Origin: Candidatus Manganitrophus morganii
GTDB lineage: Bacteria; Nitrospirota; Nitrospiria; SBBL01; Manganitrophaceae
DNA length: 56,229 bases
NCBI GenBank assembly: GCA_021651055.1
Contig: JAJHOH010000001.1
Span: 4,231,059-4,287,287, forward strand
Direction of reading: 5' to 3'
The position numbers and the translations under genes were made by a program. Positions 8,359-52,809 of this stretch are shown in pieces; within the stretch, counting starts at the first letter, position 1, and every line of letters begins with the position of its first letter. The notes under the pieces are model-generated. The model searched no databases. It worked only from the letters and a program-made list of their open reading frames with translations, and was not told the origin of the DNA.

Positions 8359-8691
8359 TTACTTCAGTCCCGCAAGATAAGTTGCCACCACGTCGAGCTG
8401 TTTCTCGGTGAGGCCGACCTTCGGCATCCGGGTTCCCGGTCTTGCCTTTTCCGGATCTTGGAGGAATTCCCGGAGGGCCGTTTCCTCCAAACGTCCACCG
8501 ACGTTCGAGAGATTCGGTCCGCGCGTCCCGCCGGAGCCGTTGATCACGTGGCACCGTTTACATTTGGCATCAAAGACCTTCTGCCCCGCCTCCGCCGGTG
8601 AAAGGCCCGCTAGCGCCTCATCACTGATTCCACCCGAACACCCTGCCAGTAAAATTCCGACCGCCACCGTGGCCCAAATGAGTTTCGACAT
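8359..8691 (-). CDS. Lipoprotein mono-heme cytochrome c
   Basis: A 110-residue class I c-type cytochrome. The N-terminus MSKLIWATVAVGILLAGC is a lipoprotein signal with lipobox LLAGC, so the mature protein should be lipid-anchored at the periplasmic face of a membrane. CKRCH (residues 44-48) binds heme c covalently, and the distal ligand is probably the Met in GTRMPKVG. C-terminal helix TEKQLDVVATYLAGLK fits the fold. It is likely a small electron shuttle; partners cannot be told because no oxidase or reductase genes adjoin. It has its own promoter, upstream of which the MITE lies. Confidence 0.92.
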   Translation of the reverse strand: MSKLIWATVAVGILLAGCSGGISDEALAGLSPAEAGQKVFDAKCKRCHVINGSGGTRGPNLSNVGGRLEETALREFLQDPEKARPGTRMPKVGLTEKQLDVVATYLAGLK

Positions 8692-8723
8692 GTTTTACGC
8701 CCCCTCGTTTTCAAAATGAAAGC

Positions 8724-8752
8724 ATCTTATCAAAGAGAAGGGAAATAATCAA
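8724..8752 (-). promoter_or_regulatory. Promoter of the cytochrome c gene
   Basis: On the minus strand TTGATT (8752-8747) and TAAGAT (8729-8724) are separated by 17 bp. The start codon follows about 33 bp after the -10. The upstream edge lies 16 bp from the MITE. Confidence 0.6.
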
Positions 8753-8768
8753 AATAAAGTCCATCTGA

Positions 8769-8898
8769 GGTAGTGGGTCAGTTTGGGTTGAGCGGTTCCT
8801 TTTTGGTCGTCATTCCCGCGAAAGCGGGAATCCAGTGCTCTTAAACCTCTGGATGCCCGCTTCCGCGAGCATGACAAAATTTAAACTGGCCCACTACC
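8769..8898 (+). mobile_element. 130-bp MITE with 16-bp terminal inverted repeats and 8-bp target duplication (copy 1)
   Basis: The element begins GGTAGTGGGTCAGTTT and ends AAACTGGCCCACTACC, a 16-bp inverted repeat with one mismatch. It is flanked on both sides by the direct repeat CCATCTGA (8761-8768 and 8899-8906), a clean 8-bp target site duplication. Inside are two palindromic blocks, ATTCCCGCGAAAGCGGGAAT and a related imperfect one (GCCCGCTTCCGCGAGC). There is no coding capacity. A nearly identical copy in the opposite orientation lies at 52685-52809. These are the hallmarks of a non-autonomous element moved in trans by a transposase not present in this window. Confidence 0.88.
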
Positions 8899-8914
8899 CC
8901 ATCTGAAAACCACT

Positions 8915-8943
8915 TTTCAACGCCACTTGGTTTCGGTTATAAT
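8915..8943 (+). promoter_or_regulatory. Putative leuC promoter
   Basis: TTTCAA (8915-8920) and a perfect TATAAT (8938-8943) are 17 bp apart. The leuC ATG follows 48 bp after the -10. The MITE ends 16 bp before the -35, so the insertion may have replaced upstream regulatory sequence. No leader peptide or T-box/attenuator is evident. Confidence 0.55.
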
Positions 8944-8991
8944 GGCGGCTCGCATCGTCATTAAACGGATTGATCGGGAGATGAGAACAGC

Positions 8992-10398
8992 ATGAAACCG
9001 AAAACAATGTTTGAAAAGATCTGGGAAGCCCACGTCGTCCATGAAGAGGCCGGGAAGCCGTCGCTCCTATACATCGATCGGCATTTGATTCATGAGGTGA
9101 CCTCGGCCCAAGCCTTCGACGGACTTCGGCTGGCCAAGCGGAAGGTGCGGCGGCCCGAATTAACGTTTGCCACGATGGATCACAACGTCCCGACCACCGA
9201 TCGCGCCCTCCCGATCGAAGATGAAATCTCGGCCAAACAGATGGATACCCTCTCGCGCAATTGCAAAGAGTTCGGGGTGACCCTCTTCGATCTTAAGAGT
9301 CCGGAACAGGGGATCGTCCATGTGATCGGTCCGGAGTTGGGGCTGACCCTCCCCGGCTTTACTCTTGTCTGCGGCGACAGCCATACCTCCACCCACGGGG
9401 CGTTCGGAGCGCTGGCGTTCGGAATCGGCACGAGCGAGGTGGAGCATGTCTTGGCGACGCAGTGTCTTCTTCAAGACAGACCGAAAACCTTCCTGATCGA
9501 CGTAAATGGCCCGCGCCCCTACGGCGTGGAGGCGAAAGACATCATCCTCTCCATCATCGGGCGGATCGGCACCGGCGGCGGCGTCGGCAGCGTCATCGAA
9601 TACGCCGGCGATACGATTCGCTCGCTCAGCATGGAAGAGCGGATGACCGTTTGCAACATGTCGATCGAAGGGGGAGCCCGCGCCGGGATGATCGCCCCGG
9701 ACGAGAAGACCTTTGAATATTTGAAAGGACGAAAATACGCTCCCAAAGATTTTGATGCGGCGGTGACCCGATGGAAGAAGCTCCCGACCGATCCGGGCGC
9801 GACCTTCGATCGCACGCTGAAGATCGATGCGGCGACGTTGACCCCGCAGGTCACCTGGGGAACCAACCCCGGCCAGGTCCTGCCGATCGACGCCCGCATT
9901 CCGAATCCGACCGAATATACCGATCCGAACGACCGGAAGTCGGCCGAGCGGGCCCTCGAATACATGGGGCTGCGCCCCGGAACCCGGATCGAGGAGATCC
10001 CGATCGAGCGGGTCTTCATCGGCTCCTGCACCAACGCCCGGATCGAAGATCTTCGCCGAGTCGCCCAGTTCGTGAAGGGCCGCCGGGTCTCCTCCAAAGT
10101 CTATGCGATGATCGTCCCCGGATCGCAGCAGGTGAAGAAAAAAGCCGAAGAGGAAGGGCTCCATCGCATCTTCAAAGAGGCCGGGTTCGATTGGCGGGAG
10201 TCGGGCTGCTCGATGTGCCTCGGCATGAATCCCGATACCCTGAAGCCGGGTGAACGGTGCGCTTCCACCTCCAACCGGAACTTCGAGGGACGCCAGGGAA
10301 AGGGAGGACGGACCCATCTCGTCAGCCCGATCATGGCGGCCGCCGCGGCGGTCGAGGGACATTTCGTCGACGTTCGTCAGTACGATTCTAAAAAGTAG
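8992..10398 (+). CDS. leuC: 3-isopropylmalate dehydratase large subunit
   Basis: A 468-residue aconitase-family protein that, with LeuD, isomerises 2-isopropylmalate to 3-isopropylmalate in leucine synthesis. The 4Fe-4S ligands are visible as C346 in [10 protein letters not shown] and C406/C409 in [12 protein letters not shown]. Other family blocks are [30 protein letters not shown] and the C-terminal [20 protein letters not shown]. Length is normal. It is followed by leuD after 13 bp, so the two subunits are co-transcribed. leuA and leuB are not in the window. Confidence 0.97.
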
Positions 10399-52040: not shown

Positions 52041-52676
52041 TAGCGGGGCTTCGCCCCAAGCCCCACCTGCCTGAATCCAATGTCGTGGGGCTGCTCGCCC
52101 CACACCCCCGCCGCGGGGGGTGCGTGCCCACCCCCCTTCGGATTCCCAGGGCAGCCGGGGGGAAAGTACCCCCCCAGCTCCCCCCGTCTTACGGTCAGAA
52201 CTCGCACCCCCACGGAAGAGCACCGTGGATGGTGCTTCAGACAGCTGACCTAATAGGGTAGGTGGAACGATTTGATTTGTAGTGGGTCTCTGCGTCCTCG
52301 CTCCACCCATCCCCCAGTGGGTCCCTTGCGCTGCGGGCGCAGAGCCCCACAGAACATCACCCCGAATTCTAAGAATTAAATCAAAACCCAAGAGCAAAGA
52401 GCGTGCGCGTCATGGGCGTCCTGCGCCCCCCATTCTCCTGCGTTCTTCTGTCCAGACGTATTATCGACCAAATCAGGTCAGCATGTTTGAAGCACAATCC
52501 ACGGTGCTCTTCCGTGCGTTGTGCGAGTTCTGACCGTGGGGGGAGCAGGGGGGGGCTTGCCCCCTCCGCTGCCCTGGGAATCCAAAGGGGGTTGGGCACG
52601 CAACCCCCGTGGCGGGGGGTGGGGCGAGGAGCCCCACGACATTGATCCTCGCAGGTGGGATCCGGGGCAAAGCCCC
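52041..52676. repeat. Fold-back inverted repeat built of short GC hairpins
   Basis: Two arms of about 200-210 bp (52041-52252 and 52475-52676) are inverted copies of each other, roughly four bases in five matching by eye, around a 222-bp spacer. Each arm contains the same series of small hairpins: GGGGCTTCGCCCC (left) or its variant with GGGGCAAAGCCCC (right), GTGGGGC...GCCCCAC, CCCCC...GGGGG, and CACGG...CCGTG. No coding frame across it has a plausible ribosome site or protein-like composition. It is followed 8 bp later by the MITE copy 2. Its origin is unknown; candidates are a decayed mobile element or a structured noncoding locus. Confidence 0.8.
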
Positions 52677-52684
52677 TTCTATTC

Positions 52685-52809
52685 GTGGGTCAGTTTAAAT
52701 TTTGTCATGCTCGCGGAAGCGGGCATCCAAAGGTTTAAGAGCACTGGATTCCCGCTTTCGCGGGAATGACGACCAAAAAGGAACCGCTCAACCCAACTGA
52801 CCCACTACC
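52685..52809 (-). mobile_element. MITE copy 2, reverse orientation, left end truncated
   Basis: The reverse complement of copy 1 (8769-8898) matches this interval over nearly its whole length, with only a few substitutions and a 1-bp length difference. The right end is intact (AACTGACCCACTACC) but the left terminal four bases (GGTA) are replaced by ATTC, and no target duplication matches. Loss at this end fits disruption by, or insertion into, the neighbouring fold-back repeat. Confidence 0.85.

Follow-up and report, generated by a model that had tools for sequence, protein, structure and literature searches.

The segment at positions 8761 to 8906 of the window (the whole 56,229-nt stretch of Candidatus Manganitrophus morganii DNA analyzed here) raises two questions: whether it is the product of a single transposition event and, if so, which transposase moved it. 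A sequence-only reading had taken it for a gene-less MITE with intact 16-bp ends, inserted by a transposase that makes 8-bp duplications. We compared the segment with the rest of the host genome, which is assembled as one contig of 4,287,287 bp, with congeners, and with transposons of other phyla.

Results

A 130-bp gene-less element between two divergent genes

As read directly from the sequence, the element proper is 130 bp long and occupies positions 8769..8898; the longer span of the sequence-only reading delimits the feature correctly but includes both flanking repeats. The left terminal inverted repeat, GGTAGTGGGTCAGTTT (8769..8784, forward strand), faces an inverted copy, GGTAGTGGGCCAGTTT (8883..8898, reverse strand), so the element is bounded by an inverted pair as proposed. 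The two ends agree at 15 of 16 positions and differ by a single T/C, a mismatch that the description of the ends as intact had passed over. A repeat search extended the inverted arms to 19 nt at 89% identity. Outside the ends, CCATCTGA is present without mismatch at 8761..8768 and again at 8899..8906, and this 8-bp pair is the sole direct repeat in the interval 8700–8960. When the end pattern was sought with up to three mismatches, four occurrences were found in the window compared to 0.30 expected from shuffling, each of them part of one of the two MITE copies located there. The window's list of open reading frames holds none of at least 60 amino acids overlapping 8769–8898, in agreement with the claim that the element has no gene.

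The interior contains an imperfect hairpin core, GTCATTCCCGCGAAAGCGGGAATCCAG...CTGGATGCCCGCTTCCGCGAGCATGAC (8809..8875). The whole MITE is predicted to fold into one near full-length hairpin of −67.3 kcal/mol (shuffled mean, −37.3; z = −8.2), as expected from its inverted-repeat structure. No match to the MITE was found in Rfam.

The element lies between two divergent genes, both named from their translations: a small c-type cytochrome lipoprotein with a CxxCH motif upstream (8359..8691, reverse strand) and leuC, for the 3-isopropylmalate dehydratase large subunit, downstream (8992..10398, forward strand). A predicted leuC promoter, TTTTCA-18-TATAAT (8914..8943, forward strand), is a consensus match of a kind expected 0.6 times by chance in the region. 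It starts 8 bp past the right duplication, and alignment shows it to be conserved in congeners and intact here. The insertion leaves the predicted promoter unharmed; an effect on expression is possible.

Copies at other sites and empty sites in relatives

The genome contains five copies of the MITE at ≥98% identity, the other four matching that at leuC over the full or nearly full length (98 to 99%). Copies elsewhere had been named as a point on which the interpretation would stand or fall, and three of these four have perfect 8-bp duplications of their own; together with the leuC copy, the four distinct duplications are CCATCTGA, GGTGATTG, TCGAGGGC, and GGGTGAGG. In the main family, GGTAGTG marks the exact copy boundaries, and no complete copy lacks its 8-bp duplication. 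The second copy in the window (52681..52809, reverse strand) is damaged: at 52681, its terminal GGTA is replaced by ATTC, and it lacks an 8-bp duplication. The stretch to its left, 52430–52680, is repetitive, pieces of it matching many sites in congeners G009, G013, and G011 at ~71 to 95% identity. The other MITE copies are also largely intergenic, as expected for neutral insertions.

A second subfamily in the same genome (loci L007, L008, L011, and L013) has GGTAGTGACTCA-like ends. Its duplications are perfect at L007 and L013 (CAAGGATC and CTCCCGAC); of the other two, one pair has a mismatch, and one is shifted by one base. Diverged copies of the MITE are present in congeners G013 and G010, mostly with 8-bp duplications (GGGAATTC, GAAATTCC, TAAACCCA, GGGTAGGA, and CGCCGGCA). 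A 32-bp end fragment in G013 (L088) was considered as part of an autonomous element and rejected, as no transposase open reading frame is found there.

Two observations concern the interior of these elements. The hairpin core at 8809–8875 (GTCATTCCCGCG...GCGGGAATCCAG) is widespread in the genome and in the order without MITE ends, related cores of this kind occurring in the host genome at L015, L016, L018, and L022; the core may have been a repeat in its own right that the MITE took up. In some congener copies and some second-subfamily copies, the hairpin holds an extra segment of at least ~50 bp, such as AAGCGCCTGGGACCGACTTGATGCGC...CGCTTCGCGGAACGC (L006, L011, L013, L089, L090, and L098), which looks as if a second small element were nested within the first.

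The orthologous leuC site was located in relatives via the region downstream of the MITE. In G009 and G013, which match the query at 98% and 92% identity, respectively, the site reads AAAGT-CCGTCTGA-AAACC, i.e., the empty site with one target copy that the sequence-only reading had anticipated. The target in the empty sites differs from ours by one base, with G in place of the A found in both of our copies; a substitution that arose before the insertion, and was then duplicated along with the target, would give this pattern. For each of L002, L003, and L004, the two flanks joined together match G013 through the junction, where a single target copy stands, and the L005 site is empty in both G009 and G013. 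The empty sites lack exactly the element and one duplication. Multiple copies and empty sites exclude a chance origin of the feature.

Transposase-encoding transposons with the same ends

No IS1-like transposase was detected in the host genome by a search with the Pfam DDE_Tnp_IS1 profile or by protein search. The profile gave one weak match, in congener G010. The end of that transposase open reading frame adjoins GGTAGTGACTCATTTTGAA, which is the end of the second MITE subfamily; the contig ends within the gene, and the element is incomplete. A search with the G010 protein identified an 84%-identical gene in G012 and none in the host genome. The G012 gene adjoins an end, GGTAGTGGGTCAGTTT, that is identical to that of the MITE at 16 of 16 positions. 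The left end of this transposon was not found on its contig, where the element is incomplete.

Contigs searched with the G012 protein yielded 80 loci spanning Nitrospirota, Proteobacteria, Acidobacteria, Verrucomicrobia, Chloroflexi, Actinobacteria, and others. Paired inverted ends were found in 56 of them, with perfect 8-bp duplications in 48 and one-mismatch duplications in 2. The 48 transposons with perfect duplications are 1.9 to 4.2 kb long, have GGTAGTGNNTCAGTTT-like ends, and come from many phyla. A solo-ended or domesticated transposase, with a right end only near the gene, had also been considered; it was dropped when a wider search revealed the left end further upstream together with perfect duplications. 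A full-length relative of the transposase, at 32% identity, is encoded in the 321-kb Brevundimonas phage vB_BpoS-Gurke (ON529850.1, 174788–175666), where no feature is annotated.

Among 396 genomes of the phylum, ends at MITE spacing occur in two only: the host (4 elements) and G371, a more distant Nitrospirota genome (37 forward matches). The MITE-size elements of G371 have a different core, AAATGGGGACACGTCCCAATTTC, unrelated to the interior of the host MITE; of those read, one is flanked by a perfect duplication, GTCGAACG, and another by a pair with a single mismatch. G371 also encodes a transposase (69% identity) in an intact 285-residue frame, within a complete autonomous element of 2649 bp whose ends are both identical to the MITE end at 16 of 16 positions and which has CCTGAGAG on either side. 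The G371 data therefore place identical ends on a gene-bearing element and on MITEs within one genome. An autonomous relative with the same 16-bp ends, which the sequence-only reading had looked for in the host's own genome, is thus found in other genomes, and none was detected at home. The MITE has little in common with the autonomous elements beyond the terminal 16 bp and therefore did not arise from any element seen by simple internal deletion.

The transposase belongs to the wider IS1 family

Residues D66, D138, and E202 are invariant in all 36 aligned transposases. PF03400 matches 34 of the 36 (E ≤ 0.001); the G010 protein scores 26.9 bits against a gathering score of 24.1, and the L112 protein, at 23.7, falls just below. 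The NCBIfam IS1 model NF033558 matches all 36, L112 scoring 49 with a cut-off of 100. Plasmid homologues of the transposase are annotated as IS1 family transposase. A profile of the 36 sequences aligns colinearly with InsA and InsB of Escherichia coli IS1A, in a search space of two sequences in which E-values say little beyond motif agreement.

The elements resemble IS1A in having a DDE transposase colinear with InsA (HTH) and InsB (DE-W, TDG, and ERxNLxxR), a short target duplication, and the sequence GGTARTGACTC, common to their ends and the right end of IS1A (GGTAATGACTCCAACTTA). Ends of the GGnnnTG type are characteristic of the IS1 family; those of IS1A (GGTAATG and GGTGATG) and those found here (GGTAGTG) are all of this type. 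Unlike IS1A, for which a programmed frameshift is annotated, the present transposases are encoded by a single open reading frame of ~275 to 290 residues that has no frameshift and no InsA zinc finger, and most elements are 2 to 4 kb long and contain extra genes. The duplication is 8 bp in all clear cases, whereas that of IS1 is usually 9 bp. Since the single open reading frame starts at the HTH region, classical IS1, with its InsA/InsB frameshift and zinc finger, is excluded; the wider IS1 family fits. In that family, the ISMhu11 group resembles the present elements in having a single-ORF transposase, lengths of up to ~4.6 kb, and GGnnnTG ends. A literature search on ISMhu11 or on passengers of IS1-family elements returned nothing usable.

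Passenger genes

Among 75 passenger open reading frames scanned in elements with these ends, which were called mechanically and doubtless include some that are not genes, 11 encode P63C-domain proteins. Other passenger domains are NYN, helix-turn-helix, GmrSD, Panacea, and AAA, and PADLOC matches among the passengers include HEC-06, HEC-09, RmrA, and PD-Lambda-2_B. Many elements (among L118–L193) have a small open reading frame just inside the left end with the motif GGLKGGKAR...IAKKAAxARW; none of the three tested matched Pfam.

Discussion

The feature at 8769–8898 is a gene-less mobile element, well documented but ordinary. It is short, has inverted ends, lacks a transposase gene, and is accompanied by a target duplication and an empty site; its copies are dispersed, and its ends are common to an autonomous element, as is characteristic of MITEs. 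The MITE inserted here with exact duplication of an 8-bp target, has spread recently to multiple sites, and shares identical ends with transposons that encode a transposase. We infer from this that a transposase acted in trans, joining the element to an 8-bp staggered target, and that it was later lost or came from outside. These results support a refinement of the sequence-only reading, whose 8-bp-duplicating transposase is borne out by transposons that combine the 16-bp ends with the 8-bp duplication: the enzyme is IS1-like, and its source is now lost or external.

Other explanations for parts of this pattern were weighed. One is that a different 8-bp-duplicating transposase, e.g., IS1595, moved the MITE and that the likeness of the ends arose by chance. 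IS1595 transposases are indeed present in two congeners, G010 and G012, and the IS1595 model weakly matches 14 of the 36 IS1-like proteins. However, a scan of the IS1595 loci L108 and L109 found no GGTAGTG...TCA end with fewer than two mismatches, and although the contig of a weak partial hit, L110, has one GGTAGTGGGTCA, the IS1595 match there covers 26 positions only. The IS1-like genes, in contrast, run straight into the 16-bp sequence, and their whole elements share both the ends and the duplication length. IS1595 was rejected as the MITE parent, its transposase in the two congeners not being beside MITE ends, and we consider a transposase of this other kind very unlikely. Still harder to sustain is that the feature is a host REP or dyad hairpin repeat, multiplied by a RAYT-like activity or recombination, with incidental inverted ends. 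The presence of the hairpin core (TCATTCCCGCG...GCGGGAAT) in the genome without MITE ends and the folding of the whole unit as a hairpin would suit such an origin, but the exact GGTAGTG boundaries, the duplication at every complete main-family copy, and the G371 elements, in which these ends enclose an unrelated core, argue against it, and empty sites lacking exactly the element and one duplication largely refute it.

It has also to be asked whether the insertion was retained for an effect on leuC or the cytochrome gene, e.g., through an RNA hairpin or an altered promoter. The location of a strongly folding element between divergent genes, 8 bp from the predicted leuC promoter, could be read in this way. 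Yet that promoter is intact, neither an Rfam match nor a terminator-like site was found, the nearest relatives keep the same genes around the empty site, and the intergenic placement of the other copies is that of neutral insertions. Such a role is therefore improbable, though less so than the two origins considered above.

The explanation best matching the comparison of ends, duplications, and genomes is that the MITE is nonautonomous and that, very probably, an IS1-family transposase encoded by a single ORF mobilized it in trans, from a source since lost or external. The MITE would consist of end sequences recognized by this DDE transposase around a hairpin core. Supplied in trans, the enzyme would bind the two ends and join the MITE to a target that it had cleaved with an 8-bp stagger; gap filling by host repair would then leave CCATCTGA twice. 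A point against trans mobilization is that transposases of the IS1 type can show a preference for acting in cis. With no source of the transposase detected in the genome, these copies have probably lost the means to move.

The MITE belongs to a known kind of element, of which it is a new member. Like IS-derived bacterial MITEs as a class, it is short and gene-less, with terminal inverted repeats and a target duplication. MITEAba12, described as a nonautonomous IS-derived element (PMC6382973), is a different MITE from other hosts, and here the transposase was not found in the MITE-carrying genome. None of the papers listed by a literature search on the hairpin core was relevant, and the Manganitrophaceae genome paper (PMC9040806) contains no mention of transposons.

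The case provides a fully documented insertion, with element, copies, and empty sites, in an inferred relative of manganese-oxidizing Nitrospirota, and identical ends in other genomes point to a candidate transposase. As a by-product, the IS1-like transposons with passengers are of more interest than the MITE itself. In a broader proposal, to which we give somewhat less than even credence, the MITE would be a trace of widespread, little-described compact IS1-like transposons (2 to 4 kb, with 8-bp duplications) that move variable passengers, several of them similar to candidate defence or toxin-antitoxin genes, along with a small conserved protein of the type GGLKGGKAR...KKAAxxRW, through many bacterial phyla; in different hosts, their transposase would mobilize hairpin MITE families that are independent of one another. 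The multi-phylum transposon set offers a defined system for testing trans mobilization of MITEs and for cataloguing the cargo of small transposons.
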